Positions 1,597 through 13,275 of a stretch of 54,802 nt of DNA are shown here, one piece after another; within the stretch, counting starts at the first letter, position 1; each line of letters starts with the position of its first letter. The notes below the pieces were generated by a model that saw only the letters and a program-made list of their open reading frames with translations, had not been told where the DNA came from and did not search any database. Both the position numbers and the translations under genes were made by a program. This DNA comes from Candidatus Mediterraneibacter vanvlietii (GTDB lineage: Bacteria > Bacillota > Clostridia > Lachnospirales > Lachnospiraceae): the NCBI GenBank assembly GCA_019113645.1, contig DXGZ01000065.1, positions 1 to 54,802 on the forward strand, given 5' to 3'.

Positions 1597-1615
1597 CAGG
1601 GCTGTTTCATGAATA
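1597..1615 (+). repeat. Left terminal inverted repeat of the 6-kb element
   Basis: CAGGGCTGTTTCATGAATA matches the reverse complement of 7530-7548 at 18 of 19 positions (C/T at position 6). Similarity stops at once on the inner side, so this is a short terminal repeat rather than part of a longer duplicated sequence. Confidence 0.87.
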
Positions 1616-1772
1616 AAAATTAACTATGGAGAATTTCTGGAAAAAGCTGGAAAATATAGAGCTATAAATTTGCTGTATATTTCTGGCTTTTTTTGTCTGA
1701 TAGGAGAAAACTCATGGAAAACAGAAGAATCAGGATGTCGAGTTTCTTGTCGAGCACAGGCGCAGCAAGAGA

Positions 1773-1817
1773 AGAACCAGCACTGCGCTGTTCATATAAC
1801 AGCACAGTGCCGGTTCT
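1773..1817 (-). terminator. Terminator of the sigma/anti-sigma operon
   Basis: Arms 1773-1792 and 1798-1817 are complementary at 18 of 20 positions around a 5-nt loop. On the minus strand the stem is followed by a T-rich stretch. It lies just downstream of the anti-sigma gene, inside the element. The rest of 1616-1844 shows nothing further. Confidence 0.7.
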
Positions 1818-1844
1818 GTTATTGTCCTGTAAGACTGCGGCTGC

Positions 1845-2675
1845 TCAGTCATCGTCATCCTCGCCGCTGTCATCTCCGTCGTCCCAGTCATCATCCCCGT
1901 AACTGCTGTCTCCGTCGTCTGTATCATCGCCGGCATCCTCATACAGATCATCGGTAGCGTCGTCATCATAGCCGGAATCACCCGCTGCGGGCTGCACTGG
2001 TTCTGGTTCTGCGGCCGGTTCGGGCGCGGGTTCAGGATCCGGGATAGGGATCGTGATGCTCTGCGGCTCCTCCAGGACATCCGCGTCTATCGTCCCAACA
2101 CTGACATTGATCGTGAGGTCGTACTGCTTCAGGTGCTCATTCAGCTCGTCGACCAGATCTTTTTCAAGGGTATCTGCCCACTCTGTGTTTTTAGAATTGA
2201 CGAGAAGGGCGACCTGACCGCCGTCATCGAGGAAGCCAAGATCGATCGCCCGGTCGGTGAGCTCGTCGGTGACAGTGTACTTGTCTTTCCCTTCATATTC
2301 ATAGCCGTCGATCAGAGTTTTCCCGTCCTCATTTATGCCGTCAAGATCAAGGACCCTGCCGGAACGGCTCAGAGTCATCTCGACGTCAGGATTGATCTGC
2401 ATCTGTATTGTGCCGTAGGGAAGGAAGAAATATTGATATTCATACACCCCGAATACGGCGACGCAGATGCAGGCCGCCAGGCTGGCTGCAAGACGGATGA
2501 CACGGTTCACCCGTTTCTTTTTGTCTTCCGGATATTTTAAGGGGAAAGCTCTTTCAACAATGTCTCCAATCTGATACCCCACATTGGCAGCCTTGATGAA
2601 ACGGCCTTCATTGTCCAGAAGGACGGCGTAGGCGGTATGCACTTCCATTACTAAATACGTCGTGTTTTCTTTCAT
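1845..2675 (-). CDS. RsgI-type membrane anti-sigma factor with acidic tail
   Basis: The predicted role is to hold the neighbouring SigI-type sigma factor at the membrane until an outside signal is sensed. The layout matches RsgI: a cytoplasmic N-terminal domain (about 1-50, with a YLVMEVHTAYAVLL start), one membrane helix (about 57-79), then an extracellular domain (about 88-195) containing INPDVEMTLSRSGRVLDLDG and NEDGKTL. A Pro/Glu linker (about 207-232) follows, then a very acidic tail (233-276) rich in Asp, Gly, Ser and Tyr. In cellulolytic clostridia the RsgI C-terminus carries carbohydrate-binding modules; here a low-complexity acidic tail takes that place. GGAG lies 7 nt before the ATG. 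The gene follows the sigma gene after 32 bp. The ligand is unknown. Confidence 0.85.
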   Translation of the reverse strand: MKENTTYLVMEVHTAYAVLLDNEGRFIKAANVGYQIGDIVERAFPLKYPEDKKKRVNRVIRLAASLAACICVAVFGVYEYQYFFLPYGTIQMQINPDVEMTLSRSGRVLDLDGINEDGKTLIDGYEYEGKDKYTVTDELTDRAIDLGFLDDGGQVALLVNSKNTEWADTLEKDLVDELNEHLKQYDLTINVSVGTIDADVLEEPQSITIPIPDPEPAPEPAAEPEPVQPAAGDSGYDDDATDDLYEDAGDDTDDGDSSYGDDDWDDGDDSGEDDDD

Positions 2676-2707
2676 ATTCGGCTCCGTTTCTATGTAATCA
2701 GCAGTGT

Positions 2708-3430
2708 TTATAAGGTCTCGGACAGATGATAAAGGTGACCGCGTATGATCTCGTACCCGTTGGTAAACGCAAGAAGGACTGCGATCAGATACTTCCGATG
2801 GCGTTCCAGTGTTTTCTTGTCAACACCGGAAAGGTTTGAAAGCGCCGTGATGGGCAGTTTTTTTGTCTGGACAAGTTCATCCAGGTATTCGGGATGTCTC
2901 CGGGCTGAGGTCAGCACCTTCTGGCACGCTCTGAGTGTGCGTTCCTGCCGGGGGCAGTTATCCGCCACGTCGGAAAAAGAGATACCGAATCCTTCCAGAC
3001 ACTGTTCAAATTCTGTGATCTCTTCTTTTGCTGCGCTCCTGTGGTGCGAGGTCTCTATTTCATTTGTCGGATCCTCCAGGTGATCGATCTTGAGCGCGTC
3101 TTCTTCTCCGTCCTGTATCGGCTCGTGAAGAGAGACTACCTTTGCATGTTTTTTTTCCCTGCGGTAATGATCGATCAGCCGGCTCCGGATCCCGCGCGAA
3201 GCATAGGCGAGAAATGCGCCCCGGTGCTTTTCGTATCCGAGAATAGCCTCGTAGAATGCAAGAAGCACTATGCTGAACTCTTCATCCTGGCCTTCTACAG
3301 GCGCCCTGTGAAGAAATTTTGCTGCTTCAGCACGAATAAAACCCATATATTGACGGATCAGAGCATCTGCAGCTTCGGAATCCGTCTTGGCCGCATATAC
3401 CTGTTCTGTCAATTCATGCCCACCGCTCAT
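2708..3430 (-). CDS. sigI: SigI-type RNA polymerase sigma factor
   Basis: This alternative sigma-70-family factor is of the SigI group. The region-2-like part holds DEEFSIVLLAFYEAI, then AYASRGIRSRLIDHYRREKK. The C-terminal part ends with LSNLSGVDKKTLERHRKYL followed by a hydrophobic stretch, the characteristic SigI C-domain. Length (about 240 residues) is normal for SigI. Two ATGs are possible: AGGAGG is only 3 nt before the one at 3436 but 9 nt before the one at 3430, so 3430 is chosen. It is paired with the RsgI-type gene downstream and is driven by a promoter (3456-3483) that looks like its own recognition site, implying autoregulation. Confidence 0.9.
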   Translation of the reverse strand: MSGGHELTEQVYAAKTDSEAADALIRQYMGFIRAEAAKFLHRAPVEGQDEEFSIVLLAFYEAILGYEKHRGAFLAYASRGIRSRLIDHYRREKKHAKVVSLHEPIQDGEEDALKIDHLEDPTNEIETSHHRSAAKEEITEFEQCLEGFGISFSDVADNCPRQERTLRACQKVLTSARRHPEYLDELVQTKKLPITALSNLSGVDKKTLERHRKYLIAVLLAFTNGYEIIRGHLYHLSETL

Positions 3431-3455
3431 AAACATTATCCTCCTGATAGTAGAA

Positions 3456-3483
3456 TACGTAAGAAATATCGTATTATCGGGGT
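3456..3483 (-). promoter_or_regulatory. Putative SigI-type promoter of sigI-rsgI
   Basis: On the minus strand ACCCCG (3478-3483) is followed after 18 bp by CGTA (3456-3459), with an A/T tract just upstream. The same boxes with the same spacing occur at 3656-3683 facing the other way. About 26 of 36 positions agree between the two sites, concentrated in the two boxes and in a TTCTT-CGTAT-CTAC stretch. SigI promoters are known for a C-rich or A-tract -35 and a CGWA -10, so autoregulation is inferred. No sigma-A promoter is apparent here. Confidence 0.6.
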
Positions 3484-3655
3484 CGTGAGTAAAAATTTTT
3501 ATCAGTATATTGGGGGAATGTTAAAACAAGATTTGATATATGTAAAATTGGCGTAAAATTAATCGGATGCGGGAAGAATGAGCAGAATCCTTTCCTTATA
3601 TATTGAAATAAGGGGCAAGGCCTCAGGAAAAATAAAAATAAAAAAATCTGCGGCG

Positions 3656-3683
3656 ACCCCGTTTTCAGGAAACTTCTTCCGTA
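3656..3683 (+). promoter_or_regulatory. Putative SigI-type promoter of the lipoprotein-CotH operon
   Basis: ACCCCG (3656-3661), an 18-bp spacer and CGTA (3680-3683), preceded by an A-rich tract at about 3628-3646. It mirrors the site at 3456-3483 and would start transcription about 45 nt before the lipoprotein ATG at 3737. Between the two promoters (about 3484-3655) nothing else is recognised. Confidence 0.6.
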
Positions 3684-3736
3684 TCCTACAACATAAACAA
3701 AACAAACACAGATAAAAACAAAGGAGTGAATGAATT

Positions 3737-4687
3737 ATGACGAAAAAAACTTTGATCACCACATTAGCAGCAACATTAACACTTTCTCTTTTCACAGGAG
3801 TGATGACGGGATGCGGAAGCCGGAGCGCACAGGGAAATGTGAACCTGCCCCAGGAAGCAGTACAGGAGCAGGCGGAAGGCGGAGTGATCTCTGTCAAGGT
3901 AAATCCAGAGATCGCGGTATCCTACGATGAGCAGGGGCTGGTAACAAAAATCGAGGGCCGCAACGACGACGGCAAAACGATCGCGGTTGATTATACAGAC
4001 TATGAAGGAAAAGACTGCCGCCAGGTAATCTGCGATCTGGTCGCAAATATCGATGGCGCGGGATATCTCGTGGAGGAAACTGAGGGAGAGGGCAGGCAGA
4101 TCACACTTGAGATCGAGGCCGGATCCATCCTTCCGAGTGAAAACTTCCTCAGCAATATCGTGGCAGGGATCCAGGAATACACAGGAAGCAAAAATCTGAA
4201 TGCATCGGTAGCGGTAGACGGCGAGAGCAACTATGGATGGACGAATTACGGAGATACAGATTACGGCCCGGACAACGACGGCGTGACGGACTACAATGAC
4301 ACAGACTACGGCCCGAACAATGACGGCGTGACAGACTACAATGACACAGATTATGGTCCGAACAACGATGGCGTGACGGATTATGACGACACAGACTACG
4401 GTCCGAACAACGATGGTGTGACGGATTATGACGACACAGACTACGGTCCGAACAACGATGGCGTGACAGATTACGACGATACAGACTACGGCCCGAATAA
4501 TGACGGTGTGACGGATTACAACGATACAGACTACGGCCCGAACAATGACGGTGTGACAGATTACAGTGCGCCGGCATCGCCTGCGGCTCCGTCTTACAGC
4601 GGCGACTCCGGTTATGATGACGGCGACTCAGGATACGATAATGGAGATTCAGGATATGACAACGGCGATTCCGGTTATGATGATTGA
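3737..4687 (+). CDS. Lipoprotein with RsgI-like domain and acidic tandem repeats
   Basis: The function is unknown. A signal peptide ends at Cys26 (GVMTGC), suggesting a lipoprotein. Residues about 50-160 resemble the extracellular domain of the anti-sigma factor at 1845-2675: VNPEIAVSYDEQGLVTKIEG and NDDGKTI align with its INPDVEMTLSRSGRVLDLDG and NEDGKTL. Residues 173-277 are seven copies of a 15-residue unit (DTDYGPNNDGVTDYN), whose Asp/Asn/Gly spacing recalls calcium-binding repeats. A Pro/Ala/Ser stretch follows, then four GDSGYD units. AAGGAG lies about 10 nt before the ATG. It is first in the plus-strand run and overlaps the next gene by 11 bp. It may compete with or assist RsgI in sensing, or be a surface substrate of the CotH-like kinase; both are inference. 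Confidence 0.8.
   Translation: MTKKTLITTLAATLTLSLFTGVMTGCGSRSAQGNVNLPQEAVQEQAEGGVISVKVNPEIAVSYDEQGLVTKIEGRNDDGKTIAVDYTDYEGKDCRQVICDLVANIDGAGYLVEETEGEGRQITLEIEAGSILPSENFLSNIVAGIQEYTGSKNLNASVAVDGESNYGWTNYGDTDYGPDNDGVTDYNDTDYGPNNDGVTDYNDTDYGPNNDGVTDYDDTDYGPNNDGVTDYDDTDYGPNNDGVTDYDDTDYGPNNDGVTDYNDTDYGPNNDGVTDYSAPASPAAPSYSGDSGYDDGDSGYDNGDSGYDNGDSGYDD
4253..4567 (+). repeat. Seven in-frame 45-bp tandem repeats
   Basis: Seven 45-bp units encode a 15-residue motif of the type DTDYGPNNDGVTDY plus N, D or S. Protein identity is nearly complete while codons vary at third positions (for example gac/gat and ggc/ggt), so the repeat is kept by selection on protein as well as by duplication. Confidence 0.92.
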
Positions 4688-5369
4688 GAAAACTCCGATA
4701 TCTTTCCGACATGAGCTGAAACATCTGATCACCCGCGGGGAAGACCGGATCCTTTCAGAACGGCTCGGCAGGCTGTTTGCACATGACAGCCATGCGGGCC
4801 CGGAAGGAGTGTACCAGGTGAACAGCCTCTATTTTGACACCCCGGACGACAAAGCGCTGACACAGAAGACTGCCGGGGTGAGCGGGAGGGAGAAGTTCAG
4901 GCTGAGGTATTATGGCAGCGATACTGCATTCCTCCGGCTGGAGAAAAAGATCAAGCAGGGCGGGCTGTGTGCAAAGCGCAGTGCCCGCCTTACTGCAGAG
5001 CAGGCAGAGCTTCTCCTGGAGGGCAGAATTGATTTCCTGCTCGGGAGCGGAGATCCTCTGCTGATCGAGCTGTACAGCAAGATGAAGGGGGAGCTGCTAC
5101 GGCCGCGGACAATCGTAACGTACGAGAGAGAAGCGTTCATCTACTCTCCCGGGAATGTGCGGGTGACACTGGACAGGAATCTCCGCACCGGACTCCGCAG
5201 TACGGAGTTCCTTGATCTGGAGAACCGGACTGTGACTGCCGCGCAGGATACGATCCTCGAAGTGAAGTATGACGCTTTTCTTCCGGACATCGTAAGGATG
5301 GCGGTGCAGACTCCGGATCGCAGGACGGGAGCCTATTCCAAATATGCATCGTGCAGGAGATATGAATAG
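4677..5369 (+). CDS. VTC domain (polyphosphate polymerase-like) protein
   Basis: VTC-domain proteins belong to the CYTH/triphosphate-tunnel fold; the yeast relative makes polyphosphate from ATP. Tunnel-type basic and acidic residues are visible in FRHELKHLI, NSLYFDT, KFRLRYYG, LRLEKKIK, CAKRSARL, TIVTYEREAF, RVTLDRNLRT and ILEVKYD. Length (about 230 residues) fits a lone VTC domain. The start is the paired ATG at 4677/4680; the longer frame upstream only reads the repeat region of the previous gene in another frame. The gene overlaps the lipoprotein end by 11 bp, suggesting translational coupling. VTC, DUF4956 and CotH genes commonly sit together in bacteria; their joint role is not settled, and polyphosphate activity here is unproven. 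Confidence 0.88.
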   Translation: MMIEKTPISFRHELKHLITRGEDRILSERLGRLFAHDSHAGPEGVYQVNSLYFDTPDDKALTQKTAGVSGREKFRLRYYGSDTAFLRLEKKIKQGGLCAKRSARLTAEQAELLLEGRIDFLLGSGDPLLIELYSKMKGELLRPRTIVTYEREAFIYSPGNVRVTLDRNLRTGLRSTEFLDLENRTVTAAQDTILEVKYDAFLPDIVRMAVQTPDRRTGAYSKYASCRRYE

Positions 5370-5443
5370 CGCAGGCCGTGAAAGCGCCCGTCAGGACGCA
5401 TCGGCTGCGGAAAATACATGATAACAGAAAAGGTGGAAATTTT

Positions 5444-6115
5444 ATGACGTTTCAGGATATATTTAAATCCAGTTTCCTTGAAAATGTAAATGCGATCTCA
5501 GTCCTGGATATGGCGCTGGCGCTCATTCTGGCTTTTGCGCTGGGATTGTTCATTTTTTTCATATATAAAAAGAGCTACTGCGGGCTTATGTACTCGGCGG
5601 CGTTCGGCGCGACGCTGGTGGCGCTCACATTGATCACGACGCTTTTGATCCTGGCGGTGACCAGCAATATCGTTCTTTCCCTCGGTATGGTCGGCGCCCT
5701 GTCTATCGTGAGATTCAGGACTGCCATCAAGGAGCCGATGGACATTGCATTTCTGTTCTGGAGCATTGCTGCAGGAATCGTGCTTGCAGCTGGTTTTATC
5801 CCGCTGGCCGTGTTCGGAAGCTTCTTCATCGGACTGGTGCTCCTGATCTTCTCGGGGAGTAAGAATGTGGAGCGCCCGTACATCCTGGTGGTCCACTGTG
5901 GGACAGAGGAGCAGGAAAAAGAGGTGCGCGAATATGTAAAAGCGCAGGTGAAAGCGCTCTCGCTGAAGAGCAAGAGTGTATCGCCGGGCTGCATTGAGCT
6001 GAATTATGAAGTGCGTTTCCCGGAGGGAGAGTCAGGATTCGTAAATGCGATTTCCGAGATGGACGGCGTGACGCACACAGTACTTGTTTCATATAACGGA
6101 GATTACATGGGGTAG
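5444..6115 (+). CDS. DUF4956 membrane protein
   Basis: This is a membrane protein of unknown function. Three to four hydrophobic helices fill the first ~140 residues (ALALILAFALGLFIFFIY, then ATLVALTLITTLLILAV, then the AAGIVLAAGFIPL/FGSFFIGLVLLIF region). The conserved core LGMVGALSIVRFRTAIKEP lies between them, with a soluble C-terminal domain after. AGGTGG lies 7 nt before the ATG at 5444; the frame extends upstream to 5378 but without a good site. It sits between the VTC and CotH genes, the usual company of DUF4956, and ends 6 bp before the CotH gene. Confidence 0.88.
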   Translation: MTFQDIFKSSFLENVNAISVLDMALALILAFALGLFIFFIYKKSYCGLMYSAAFGATLVALTLITTLLILAVTSNIVLSLGMVGALSIVRFRTAIKEPMDIAFLFWSIAAGIVLAAGFIPLAVFGSFFIGLVLLIFSGSKNVERPYILVVHCGTEEQEKEVREYVKAQVKALSLKSKSVSPGCIELNYEVRFPEGESGFVNAISEMDGVTHTVLVSYNGDYMG

Positions 6116-6121
6116 CAGAAG

Positions 6122-7519
6122 ATGCTGAAGCACAGACACATTGATAAAATCTGTATCGCGGTGATCCTGCTTGCATGCGTTCTGACAGCCGGGTTCATGA
6201 ACGGCGAGAAGCTCGGGATCCGGTCGGCCTCCGCGGATCCTGAGTATGCCTTGCGGATTTTTGACGACAGCCGGGTACACATGGTGGATATCAGGATCGA
6301 GGACTGGGAAGGATTTCTTGAGAATGCTTCGGAAGAAGAATATGCTGAATGTGACGTGGAGATCGATGGGGAGGTGTTTTCCTCTGTCGGGCTGCGGGCA
6401 AAAGGAAACAATTCTCTGAGGCTCGTGGAAGAGTTTGGGCTGAACAGGTACAGCCTGAAACTGGAATTTGACCACTTTCAGGACGGCAGTATATATTATG
6501 GGCTGGATAAGCTGTCTCTCGACTCCTCCTATCAGGACAACAGCTATCTCAAGAATTATCTCGCCTATGACATGATGGAATATATGGGAGTCCCGGCACC
6601 GCTTACCAGTTATGTGTGGGTCACTGTGAACGGAGAGGACTGGGGGCTCTTCCTGGCGGTGGAGGAACCTGAGGAGGCGTTCGCACGCAGGAATTACGGC
6701 TCGGATCACGGTCCGCTGTACAAGCCGGACTACCGCTCGCTGGAGGCGGAGAACAGCGATGTAGCTTTGAAATATACTTCGAACGATCCGTCAGACTATG
6801 ATAATATTTTCAGAAATGCGAAGTTTGATATCGACAGCGAGGACCAGGAACGGCTGATCCGGGCGCTGAAGATCCTCTCCGAGGGAGAAAACCTGGAGGA
6901 GGCGGTGAATGTGGATGAGGTGCTCAGGTATTTTACAGTACAGGTATTTACAGTCAATCTGGACAGTTATCTGGGAAGGACCGGACACAATTACTTCCTC
7001 TATGAAAAAGATGGGATCCTCAGCATCCTTCCGTGGGACTATAATCTGGCCTTTGCGACATATTCTCTCGGAATGCCGGATCCAGTAAACGATGCAGAGC
7101 TGTATGTAAACTATCCGATCAATACTCCGGCGCCGGGGGAGATCATGAGGAACCGTCCGCTCTATCACAATCTCATGAAGAACGATGAATATTTTGCAAA
7201 GTACCATGAATATTTCGATCAGTTTATCGCGGGATATTTTGAGAGTGGATTGTTTGAGAAGAAGGCTGCGGAGACGACGAAGATGATCGCGCCGTATGTG
7301 AAGAAGGATCCCACTGCATTCTGCTCCTACGAGGATTATCTCACCGCTGTACGGACGATCACGGACTTCTGCCTCCTGCGCGCTGAGAGTGTCAGGGGAC
7401 AACTCTCGGGAGAGATCCCCTCTACGATCCGCGGGCAGCAGGAAGACACAGAGAGCCGGGTGGACGCGTCTGAGGTCTGGCTGCCGGATATGGGCGAGGT
7501 CTCGGACCTTCGGGATTAA
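6122..7519 (+). CDS. CotH-like secreted protein kinase
   Basis: This is a CotH-family atypical kinase; Bacillus CotH phosphorylates serine-rich spore-coat proteins. An N-terminal membrane segment (about residues 10-25) suggests export or anchoring. Family motifs include VGLRAKGNNSL, the DKLSLDSSYQDNSYLKNYLA region, GVPAPLTSYVWVTVNGEDWG, LFLAVEE and ILPWDYNLAF, in which the Asp of PWDYN is likely a metal ligand. Length (465 residues) is normal. It ends the cargo of the element, 10 bp before the right terminal repeat. Since it is exported with a lipoprotein and an anti-sigma factor that both carry Asp/Ser/Tyr-rich tails, those are plausible substrates, but this is inference. A role in spore coats cannot be assumed. 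Confidence 0.9.
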   Translation: MLKHRHIDKICIAVILLACVLTAGFMNGEKLGIRSASADPEYALRIFDDSRVHMVDIRIEDWEGFLENASEEEYAECDVEIDGEVFSSVGLRAKGNNSLRLVEEFGLNRYSLKLEFDHFQDGSIYYGLDKLSLDSSYQDNSYLKNYLAYDMMEYMGVPAPLTSYVWVTVNGEDWGLFLAVEEPEEAFARRNYGSDHGPLYKPDYRSLEAENSDVALKYTSNDPSDYDNIFRNAKFDIDSEDQERLIRALKILSEGENLEEAVNVDEVLRYFTVQVFTVNLDSYLGRTGHNYFLYEKDGILSILPWDYNLAFATYSLGMPDPVNDAELYVNYPINTPAPGEIMRNRPLYHNLMKNDEYFAKYHEYFDQFIAGYFESGLFEKKAAETTKMIAPYVKKDPTAFCSYEDYLTAVRTITDFCLLRAESVRGQLSGEIPSTIRGQQEDTESRVDASEVWLPDMGEVSDLRD

Positions 7520-7529
7520 GTCGTAGGTG

Positions 7530-7548
7530 TATTCATGAAACAACCCTG
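7530..7548 (-). repeat. Right terminal inverted repeat of the 6-kb element
   Basis: TATTCATGAAACAACCCTG is the reverse complement of 1597-1615 with one mismatch. It begins 10 bp after the CotH stop codon and is followed at once by the second copy of the 10-bp direct repeat. Confidence 0.87.
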
Positions 7549-7558
7549 GACAGAATCG
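7549..7558. repeat. Right copy of 10-bp flanking direct repeat
   Basis: GACAGAATCG is identical to 1587-1596 and directly outside the right inverted repeat. Identity over all 10 bases suggests the insertion is not very old. Confidence 0.85.
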
Positions 7559-7567
7559 AACATGTGG

Positions 7568-7596
7568 TTGCATTCTAAATGTCAGTGTGCTATGAT
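7568..7596 (+). promoter_or_regulatory. Promoter of nusG-II/Gx operon
   Basis: -35 TTGCAT (7568-7573) and -10 TATGAT (7591-7596) are separated by 17 bp. It lies only 9 bp to the right of the direct repeat and points away from the element, mirroring the apbE promoter on the other side. Confidence 0.6.
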
Positions 7597-10857: not shown

Positions 10858-13275
10858 ATGACAGAGAAGAAAATCGAGATTCTGGCGCCCGCCGGTTCCT
10901 ATGAATCCTTTCACGCAGCTCTCTGCGCGGGAGCTGACGCGGTATACGCAGGAGGAAACAGATTCGGCGCCAGGGCATACGCGGACAATTTTACGCAAGA
11001 GGAACTGATCCGCGCCATTGACGAAGCGCACCTGCACGGGAGAAAACTTTATCTGACCGTCAACACGCTCCTGAAAGACCGTGAGATGGACGAATTATAC
11101 GATTATCTTGCTCCACTCTACAGCGCGGGGCTGGATGCGGTTATTGTGCAGGATGCGGGCGTTTTGTCTTTTGTACGGGAGAATTTCCCGGAAATGGATA
11201 TTCACGCCAGCACACAGATGGCGATCACCGGAGCCCTGGGTGCGAAGTTTATCGAAGAGCAGGGGGCAAAACGCGTTGTTCCCGCCCGTGAACTGTCGCT
11301 TGGCGAGATCCGGGCGATTCGGGAACAGACAGGACTTGAGATCGAATGTTTCGTGCATGGAGCGCTCTGTTACTGTTATTCGGGACAGTGCCTTTTGAGC
11401 AGCCTGATCGGCGGAAGAAGCGGGAACAGAGGTCAGTGCGCGCAGCCCTGCCGTCTTCCATATACTGTAAACGGCCGGAAACGGCATTACCTGAGCCCGA
11501 AGGACATCTGTACGGTTGAGATTATCCCGGAACTGATCGAAGCAGGCATTGACTCTTTCAAGATTGAAGGGCGCATGAAGAAGCCGGAGTACACCGCTGC
11601 AATAACGTCCATATACCGGAAATATACAGATCTCTATCTGAAGAATGGAAAAGAAAAATTTCGCGTACTTCCGGAAGATAAGGAAATGCTTCTTGACCTG
11701 TACAACAGGGGCGGATCTTCTTCCGGTTATTACATGATGCACAACGGGAAAGAGATGATGGCTCTGGACCGCCCAAACCACGCAGGCATACCGGCGGTAA
11801 AAGTCATCCGTCAGAAAGGAAGGGAAGTGCAGGGCACAACGCTCACCGCGCTTCATTCCGGGGATGTCATTGAGATAACCGGCGGCAAAAACAATTACAC
11901 AACCGGACAGGACAGGCTAAAAGGCGATGCAATCTCTTTCCTTGTGGCGAAAAACATCCGTCTGAAACCAGGCACTGTACTGAACAGAGTAAGAAACGAC
12001 TCGCTGATACGCCGGATGCACGACGATTACGTCAGCCACAGGCTCCAGAGAGCTGTAAAAGGTAATATACGGATCCGTCCAATGGAACCGGCAGTCCTCA
12101 CGGTAAGCTGCGGCGCTGCTTCCTACACCGCAGTCACCGCTGAACCGGTCCAGCCGGCTCAAAACCGGCCCATGGATCAGGATCGGATCCTGTCGCAGAT
12201 CAAAAAGACCGGGAATCTGGAATTCTTCTTTGAAAACCTGGAAATAGATATGAAAGGAGAGATCTTTCTTCCGATCCAGGTGCTCAACCAGCTGCGAAGA
12301 GATGCACTGGAGGGCCTGGCGTATGTTTTGAAGCAGTCTTTCAGACGGGAATCCCGGATGAACTTTTCTCTGCCTTATGACATTGCGCCTTCTGCTGAAG
12401 ATCAAATGTCGCCTTTTTCCGTATCAGCCAGAACAGGCGAACAGATAGAACAGATCCGGATTTTTGCAGAAGAGAATCCCGGAATGATCGCGCGCATTAC
12501 TGTTGACGCGGACCTGTTTGACACGTCTCTCCCAGGTGCCGCTCTGCCGGGTGCGGACTTTGATATTCACAAAAATATCGATAACATTGACAGAATCGTT
12601 TCACAAGGCGCCTGCTTTACGGCTGCGCTTCCGCCTGTTTTCAGAGAATGCGCCGGACGTTATGAAAATCTGCTCTCACAGATAGAGAAAATGGTTCCCC
12701 CAGGCGCTGTTATGATCCGGAATTATGAGGAATATCTGTTCTTAAGAGAGACCGGATTTGACAAAAATGTAATTCTGGACCATAATCTATATGTGTTTAA
12801 CCGCTATGCAAGAGATTTCTGGAAGCGGCTCGGCGTCCATGATTTCACCGCACCGCTTGAACTGAACGCGGATGAACTGGCCCGAACCGGGATCACCGAC
12901 TGCGAACTTATGGTCTACGGGACACTGCCGGTTATGATTTCCGCCCAGTGTATCAAAAAAACATGCGGACAGTGCACCGGAACTCCGGATGTCGTAACGC
13001 TGACAGACCGCACGGGCTGCGAATATATGGCAGAGATGAGGTGCGGTTCCTGCTGTAATGTAATTTATAACAAAACTCCTCTTTATCTCGGAAAGTATGA
13101 GAAAGAGATTTCATCTCTTTCTCCGAAAGCGCTGAACCTGCGCTTTCTGCATGAATCCGGAAGCCGCACAGAGGAAATATTAAATCTAGTGAAGAATACA
13201 TTTTCTTCGGAAGAAAGGACGGAAGCGCTGAACTTTGACTGTATACAGGGGCATTTTATGCGCGGAGTCCTCTAA
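10858..13275 (+). CDS. U32 family peptidase with DUF3656 domain
   Basis: Members of the U32 family include collagenase-like proteins and, in E. coli, TrhP/RlhA, which act in RNA hydroxylation; the true role here is probably RNA modification rather than proteolysis. The N-terminal TIM-barrel part shows EILAPAGSYESFHAALCAGADAVYAGG and the signature FVHGALCYCYSGQCLLSS, with a second cysteine pair in NRGQCAQPC. Length (805 residues) corresponds to the long two-part form containing DUF3656. A C-terminal cysteine cluster (CGQC, then MRCGSCC) could hold an Fe-S centre. FtsW follows 13 bp downstream. Confidence 0.9.
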   Translation: MTEKKIEILAPAGSYESFHAALCAGADAVYAGGNRFGARAYADNFTQEELIRAIDEAHLHGRKLYLTVNTLLKDREMDELYDYLAPLYSAGLDAVIVQDAGVLSFVRENFPEMDIHASTQMAITGALGAKFIEEQGAKRVVPARELSLGEIRAIREQTGLEIECFVHGALCYCYSGQCLLSSLIGGRSGNRGQCAQPCRLPYTVNGRKRHYLSPKDICTVEIIPELIEAGIDSFKIEGRMKKPEYTAAITSIYRKYTDLYLKNGKEKFRVLPEDKEMLLDLYNRGGSSSGYYMMHNGKEMMALDRPNHAGIPAVKVIRQKGREVQGTTLTALHSGDVIEITGGKNNYTTGQDRLKGDAISFLVAKNIRLKPGTVLNRVRNDSLIRRMHDDYVSHRLQRAVKGNIRIRPMEPAVLTVSCGAASYTAVTAEPVQPAQNRPMDQDRILSQIKKTGNLEFFFENLEIDMKGEIFLPIQVLNQLRRDALEGLAYVLKQSFRRESRMNFSLPYDIAPSAEDQMSPFSVSARTGEQIEQIRIFAEENPGMIARITVDADLFDTSLPGAALPGADFDIHKNIDNIDRIVSQGACFTAALPPVFRECAGRYENLLSQIEKMVPPGAVMIRNYEEYLFLRETGFDKNVILDHNLYVFNRYARDFWKRLGVHDFTAPLELNADELARTGITDCELMVYGTLPVMISAQCIKKTCGQCTGTPDVVTLTDRTGCEYMAEMRCGSCCNVIYNKTPLYLGKYEKEISSLSPKALNLRFLHESGSRTEEILNLVKNTFSSEERTEALNFDCIQGHFMRGVL

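Follow-up and report, generated by a model that had tools for sequence, protein, structure and literature searches.

A six-gene SigI regulon between ISAs1-type ends in Candidatus Mediterraneibacter vanvlietii: a probable mobile insertion cassette

How did a sigma factor, its anti-sigma factor and four further genes come to stand between the ends of an insertion sequence (IS) in the spacer of apbE and nusG? The question is raised by a contig stretch of 54,802 nt, referred to here as the window, from the 3.2-Mb genome assembly of Candidatus Mediterraneibacter vanvlietii (Lachnospiraceae), in which an element of ~6 kb (positions 1597-7548) holds a six-gene SigI block. We consider it likely, with a probability of roughly 80%, that this element is a mobile insertion cassette (MIC) with ends of the ISAs1 family, in which the transposase genes have been replaced by a self-contained SigI regulon of six genes. 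That the genes form a transposed unit is well supported, and the unit belongs to a known class with an unusual cargo. The reading is carried by the ends of the element, the duplication beside them, the empty site in relatives, the cognate IS, the lower divergence of the block and the conserved promoter-like elements, each of which is directly visible in the sequence.

The left end, CAGGGCTGTTTCATGAATA at 1597-1615 on the forward strand, recurs as its reverse complement with one mismatch at 7530-7548, giving terminal inverted repeats of 19 bp, and an exact 10-bp repeat, GACAGAATCG, abuts both ends (1587-1596 and 7549-7558, forward strand) as would the two copies of a target-site duplication. 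The original prediction, made from the letters of the window, had placed the repeats at these same coordinates. At up to three mismatches the end sequence matched the window only at the two element ends and had no match in 100 shuffles, which rules out chance repeats; in the whole genome it was found at the two element borders and at one further place with three mismatches, compared with one match for a reversed control pattern. As a word, GACAGAATCG is not evidence, and it is the exact copy adjoining each end that counts. A third exact copy lies at 12589 within an open reading frame (ORF), and at one mismatch the window has eight copies against 4.5 expected, which is chance level. The prediction had regarded copies in unrelated places as a danger to its case; such copies do exist, but the structural argument, which depends on position alone, is unaffected. 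Its view that the apbE and nusG promoters were left intact agrees with sigma-A-like elements, read by eye, outside the repeats on the apbE side (ATTATA at 1530-1535, ATACAA at 1553-1558) and on the nusG side (TTGCAT at 7568-7573, TATGAT at 7591-7596). As it had also held, the block is without a transposase: none was found among the six block proteins with Pfam and NCBIfam.

Comparison with relatives revealed what the site looks like when it is unoccupied. In a sample of 58 genomes of the genus, one per species and the source genome included, nusG was matched in 57. Among the 29 other loci read, apbE lies beside nusG with no block between them in 24, at a distance of 97-295 bp counted between the matched parts, and in the remaining five apbE falls outside the stretch. 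In 22 of these 24 spacers the sequence AATCGAACATGTGGTTGCA, which adjoins GACAGAATCG, is present once at up to three mismatches (exactly in six), and the insertion in the window lies at the AATCG of AATCGAACATGTGGTTGCA. Of the 14 other genomes that carry the block, nine belong to these 24. An empty site with one copy of GACAGAATCG had been anticipated; the empty site was found, but the full 10-mer is in none of the 24 spacers, and five have it with two mismatches at the place of insertion.

The ends also led to an IS with which the element can be compared. At up to two mismatches the end occurs in nine of the 58 genomes, and 17 of the 18 stretches around end matches outside the source genome are homologous to one IS, the match in genome G051 being the exception. 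The left end of this IS in the congeners is identical to the 19-bp left end in the window but for one base. A complete copy in genome G038 (2186 bp) has CAATCTCAGG on both sides and a frame-shifted transposase, and another in G055 (2208 bp) has ACAGCTGTGG on both sides and an open transposase frame, so that both complete cognate copies have a duplication of 10 bp, the length seen in the window; the end and duplication lengths that we regard as typical of the family were taken from the copies in these genomes. The second ORF of the G055 copy is an ISAs1-family transposase (NF033564, 225.6 bits with a cut-off of 70; also PF13808 and PF01609), and the first ORF had no family match at E 1 in Pfam or NCBIfam. 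In most of the other IS stretches the contig stops inside the IS.

The homology of the element to this IS extends beyond the terminal repeats. At the left, 110 bp (1597-1706, forward strand), aligned with four IS copies, are homologous to the IS, with 92.7% identity to the G038 copy, and there the homology stops. The right end (7524-7548, reverse strand) comprises the 19-bp repeat and 6 bp more, and is identical over 25 bp to the IS right ends of G009 and G023, over 21 bp to that of G038 and over 17 bp to that of G055. Neither of the two IS ORFs is present in the element. Positions 1702-1723 (forward strand; AGGAG..CTCATGGAAAACA) are possibly a relic of the start of the first IS ORF left by an internal deletion; the match (20 of 22 bases, E 0.45) is weak alone and is supported by its place adjoining the IS end.

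The interior consists of two divergent arms. On the reverse strand stand a SigI-type sigma factor gene (2708-3436; PF04542 27.2 bits, cut-off 24) and, adjoining it, a gene for an RsgI-type anti-sigma factor that has an RsgI_M domain and ends in an acidic tail (1845-2675; PF23750 85.8 bits, cut-off 25.3; PF12791 20.8 bits, short of the cut-off of 25). The best NCBIfam matches of the sigma factor are SigI models, all below their cut-offs (TIGR02895, 160 bits of 185; NF006178, 166 of 306). On the forward strand follow genes for a lipoprotein-like protein with a signal-like start, an RsgI_M domain (PF23750 48.9 bits) and D-T-D-Y-G-P-N-N-D-G-V repeats (3737-4687), a VTC-domain, polyphosphate polymerase-like protein (4677-5369; PF09359 118 bits), a DUF4956 protein (5444-6115; PF16316 37.1 bits) and a CotH-type kinase (6122-7519; PF08757 215 bits). 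The repeats resemble, we assume, calcium-binding repeats. The RsgI_M domain is common to the lipoprotein-like protein and the divergently encoded anti-sigma factor, and the former might be a partner or a decoy of the sensor. By analogy, the likeliest function of the cargo is a SigI-switched system for a surface polymer or its phosphorylation.

Between sigI and the lipoprotein gene lie two divergent SigI-type promoter-like elements of the form GACCCCG-N18-CGTA, one directed at sigI-rsgI (3456-3484, reverse strand) and the other at the lipoprotein-VTC-DUF4956-CotH arm (3655-3683, forward strand). They were located with aligned spacers and a pattern search, and they are kept with small changes in the 18 aligned spacers, that of the window included (e.g., in locus L133 the lipoprotein side has GACCCCA, and in L124 the sigI side has GACCCTA). 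In SigI promoters as described, the -10 box contains CGWA and the -35 region is followed by an A-tract (PMC10575876; PMC6056542); in the block elements CGTA fits the former, with TTTT or A-rich bases behind CCCCG at the place of the latter. The claim that the sigma factor travels with matching promoters of its own is borne out to the extent of these two conserved promoter-like elements. With spacers of 18-24 bases the pattern has three matches in the source genome, two of which are the block elements, and its reversed control has eight. With exactly 18 bases there are 47 matches in the 58 genomes. Of these, 24 fall inside the block and are spread over 14 of the 15 genomes that carry it, four fall outside it in the block-bearing genomes, and 19 come from the 43 genomes without it. 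Beyond the block this strict pattern, which looser promoters would escape, showed no excess in the 58 genomes, and the regulon visible with it is the block itself.

Outside the window the block is not rare. A strong sigI match (E <1e-100) is present in 15 of the 58 genomes, the source included, and the figure rises to 49 when weak matches to other sigma factors are counted. In the 14 other congener stretches the genes are syntenic, except that in G055 the contig stops before cotH, and neither apbE nor nusG lies within the stretches fetched around these copies. Twenty loci were found in a scan of named genomes: the 14 congeners, three with the six genes (Sellimonas caecigallum, Claveliimonas monacensis and Lachnoclostridium sp. 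An118) and three distant ones without all six. On the rsgI side, to which the reading was confined, the congener blocks (L071-L084) have several different neighbors, and the blocks show no visible transposon ends. These neighbors are what we take to be an htpG-like gene in G003, G051 and G041, an htpG-like gene with one more gene in G045, presumably a TetR-like and DegV-like pair in G027, G006, G025 and G008, and others in the rest.

Two kinds of evidence suggest that the six genes were imported together, as had been proposed. The first is divergence: block DNA is 88% identical to that of G045 and 82% to that of G003, and in the comparison with G045 third-codon identity is 69-84% for the six block genes against 37-62% for nine flanking genes, with no overlap. 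The names of most flanking genes in this comparison are our assumption. The second is a 35-bp sequence just inside the left end (1736-1770, forward strand) which reads in frame like the end of htpG (DVEFLVEHRRSKR) and is probably a relic of its 3' part, htpG being the name that we presume for the parent gene. It matches G003 and G045 at 30 of 35 positions, G009 at 28, the organism's own htpG at 26, G041 at 25 and G051 at 24; none of 500 shuffles reached the score with G003, and none of 500 that with G045, while the G051 and G041 stretches gave no signal (231 and 317 of 500 shuffles). The organism's own htpG lies intact on a different contig and is the less likely source (26/35 against 30/35). 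This small piece of sequence fits capture at an htpG-block locus of the kind seen in G003 and G045.

We hypothesize the following history, in which the cassette is probably a former composite transposon that no longer has either transposase gene. The donor would have been a relative of G045 or G003 in which two IS copies flanked the block, one within htpG and one behind cotH. Deletions would then have taken both transposase genes, leaving the 110-bp left end and the 25-bp right end, and after transfer between species an ISAs1-family transposase acting in trans would have moved the unit into the apbE-nusG spacer, duplicating 10 bp. In its new place SigI would transcribe both arms from its own two promoters and RsgI would restrain SigI until an outside signal arrives; the RsgI_M lipoprotein-VTC-DUF4956-CotH arm would then be switched on, probably building or phosphorylating a surface polymer.

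Several observations weigh against this reading. In the source assembly no cognate transposase was found by protein search (E 1e-10) or family model, and no IS ends were found there beyond the two borders and the one match with three mismatches. The search proposed in the original prediction, for other insertions with the 19-bp ends and a matching transposase, succeeded in the congeners but not in the source assembly. The window holds the one copy of the block with these ends; at up to four mismatches the ends are absent from the 14 congener copies and the three other records, and because of this the block appears to change its place by other means as well. A sister IS copy in G053 is without a duplication. 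The gap between block and flanks is smaller with G003 (56-74% against 38-63% for eleven flanking genes), where the ranges overlap through one short gene, zapA, at 63%, and with G051 and G002 there is no gap. No close donor was found, the nearest being G045 at 88% DNA identity, and the htpG-like relic is only 35 bp long, with a lead of four bases over the own htpG. Lastly, the 47 pattern matches with a spacer of exactly 18 bases compare with 80 for the reversed control in the 58 genomes, and two compare with two in the source genome, and the count is not above chance.

A resident transposase copy may have been lost in assembly gaps, though ISs present in several copies in G009 and G023 leave traces of their ends at contig borders, and the source assembly shows none. 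As no transposase was found in the assembly, the element probably cannot move at present. A sister IS in G002 (2190 bp), whose transposase is 54% identical and which has the same end core, CAGGGTTGTTTCATGAA, is a candidate helper for elements with ends of this kind; three of its four copies (L174, L175, L176 and L177) have both flanks, all with 9-bp duplications, and the fourth starts at a contig end. No plasmid carrier was seen: at the sensitivity of blastn the element was unmatched in 72,556 records, and 710 records contain related transposases, all <60% identical. Across the family, with sequence read at the ends only, ends at up to one mismatch occur in nine of 397 genomes, the source genome included, and in G406, of another genus (L158, L160; G406:C66:3852-5863), two inward-facing ends lie 2.0 kb apart. 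Within the genus, 73 bp of IS left end in G015 (L031 151-871, G015:C84) are followed by a small ORF pair, and the contig stops before a right end; the pair looks, we presume, like a RelB/ParE-type toxin-antitoxin, and this is possibly a second cassette. In G047 (L032 4463-5014, G047:C7) an ORF that we take to resemble the small accessory gene of IS66-type elements stands behind 83 bp of IS left end, and the locus looks like one IS inserted in another.

An unlikely alternative, and the one that survives best, is that an IS inserted first between apbE and nusG and made the duplication, and that the SigI block later replaced its interior by illegitimate or homologous recombination, so that the whole unit never transposed. 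The 110 bp of IS left end that remain, the single known copy with these ends and the missing transposase in the source assembly are what this history would lead one to expect. It requires, however, two breakpoints in one IS that removed both ORFs and kept 25 bp at the right, and the htpG-like relic suggests that the IS left end and a piece of donor flank were already fused when the block arrived. Considerably less probable is that the element is one of a larger set of portable regulons: ISAs1-type ends would repeatedly capture gene sets, and the many locations of the block would stem from earlier rounds whose ends have decayed. The different rsgI-side neighbors and the non-IS sequence behind the IS left ends in G015 and G047 are in keeping with this idea. 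Against it, no such ends accompany the other copies, and any inverted repeats within 1.5 kb of 16 of them are pieces of 10-16 bp with no matching repeat outside (read by eye). Two end-like matches at three to four mismatches, in L124 and L125, are not at the block borders. The G047 locus looks as if an IS had struck it later, and the G015 contig breaks off before a right end. It is hardly credible that the block was simply inherited vertically at the apbE-nusG site and has its repeats by chance, common as the block is in the genus (15 of 58 genomes), given ends without a match in shuffles, extended IS homology at the left, the block-free site in 24 of 29 loci, the absence of apbE and nusG around the other 14 copies and the lower divergence of the block from G045.

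Apart from all of these features, a near-perfect inverted repeat, CAGGGCAGATGGG ... CCCATCTGCCCTG, was observed by eye at 229-286, close to the start of the contig.

The favored reading, a transposed cassette, places the element in a described class, where the original prediction had known of none. Transposase-less, IS-ended cassettes with passenger genes are known as MICs (PMC3913671, PMC3129680), and as outlined there a MIC has inverted repeats, no transposase gene nearby and usually a target duplication (PMC3913671), while a related IS that is still intact can supply the transposase that activates such transposase-less structures (PMC3129680). Examples are MIC231 of Bacillus cereus with IS231 ends and mic-qnrD (PMC3913671; Chen 1999 and De Palmenaer 2004 as cited there). 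Like these, the element in the window has terminal repeats that match an IS, a target duplication of the cognate length and passenger genes in the place of the transposase, and the transposase of its cognate IS identifies it as an ISAs1-family derivative. MICs are moved in trans by the enzyme of their cognate IS (PMC3913671), and the same may apply to the window element. This element differs from the known MICs in its ISAs1-family ends, its six-gene cargo of 6 kb, its sigma and anti-sigma factors and its promoter-like elements. With the ISAs1-family IS of the congeners (G038, G055 and others) it shares the ends, the 10-bp duplication and the subterminal left end, whereas the two IS ORFs are absent. 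A transporter IS (tIS) is likewise an IS with passenger genes unrelated to transposition, but judging from the available description (PMC3129680) it keeps its own transposase, and this assignment was rejected. Also rejected were an intact composite transposon, as only the 110-bp left and 25-bp right ends are present and not two flanking IS copies, and an integrative conjugative or mobilisable element, as neither an integrase nor a relaxase was found among the six block proteins with Pfam and NCBIfam.

The cargo has parallels of its own. As in the SigI/RsgI systems known from Clostridium thermocellum and Bacillus subtilis, the sigma factor stands beside its anti-sigma factor and the putative -10 box is of the CGWA type (PMC10575876; PMC6056542). 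Unlike in those systems, there is a single pair with two divergent promoter-like elements inside an IS-bounded unit, the block lipoprotein repeats the RsgI_M domain, and no sugar-binding domain was found in the block RsgI (Pfam, E 0.001). NELoc-2, a locus of 11.2 kb on the chromosome of Clostridium perfringens from avian necrotic enteritis, is described as encoding a sigma factor ('SgiI', here taken as SigI), a cell-wall protein, VTC and CotH, with a 226-aa membrane protein in the place of DUF4956 (PMC2879425); the likeness is one of gene content. It differs in having two VTC genes, two such membrane genes and a resolvase gene, it occurs also in an ovine strain, and the available part of its description mentions no IS ends (PMC2879425). 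In Gram-positive pel clusters, cotH, polyphosphate polymerase and DUF4956 genes occur as accessory genes, bringing three of the block families together; there they adjoin pel genes, and SigI/RsgI are not mentioned in the part of the account available (PMC7112168).

The cassette cargoes named in the available text are single enzyme or resistance genes (PMC3913671), and a literature search on MICs with a sigma factor, at the level of titles and abstracts, found no case of a sigma-regulon cargo. A sigma factor with matching promoters is thus an unusual cargo for a package of an otherwise known kind. Whether a general rule follows is doubtful: we put forward only tentatively that transposon ends can package a complete sigma regulon, that this is the first such case as far as the literature was searched, and that the several sites of the block in gut Lachnospiraceae reflect repeated moves. 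If the reading is true, the packaged regulon brings its own control into every host with an RNA polymerase that can use the sigma factor; the original prediction had conjectured that such an element would work in any host. Regulation and function could then travel together, since the unit brings the sigma factor, the sensor and the matching promoter-like elements. If the element moves, it would offer a natural test of the entry of a whole regulon into a new host, and a route by which gut Clostridia may acquire sets of surface-modification genes from one another, for which NELoc-2 is a possible parallel (PMC2879425).

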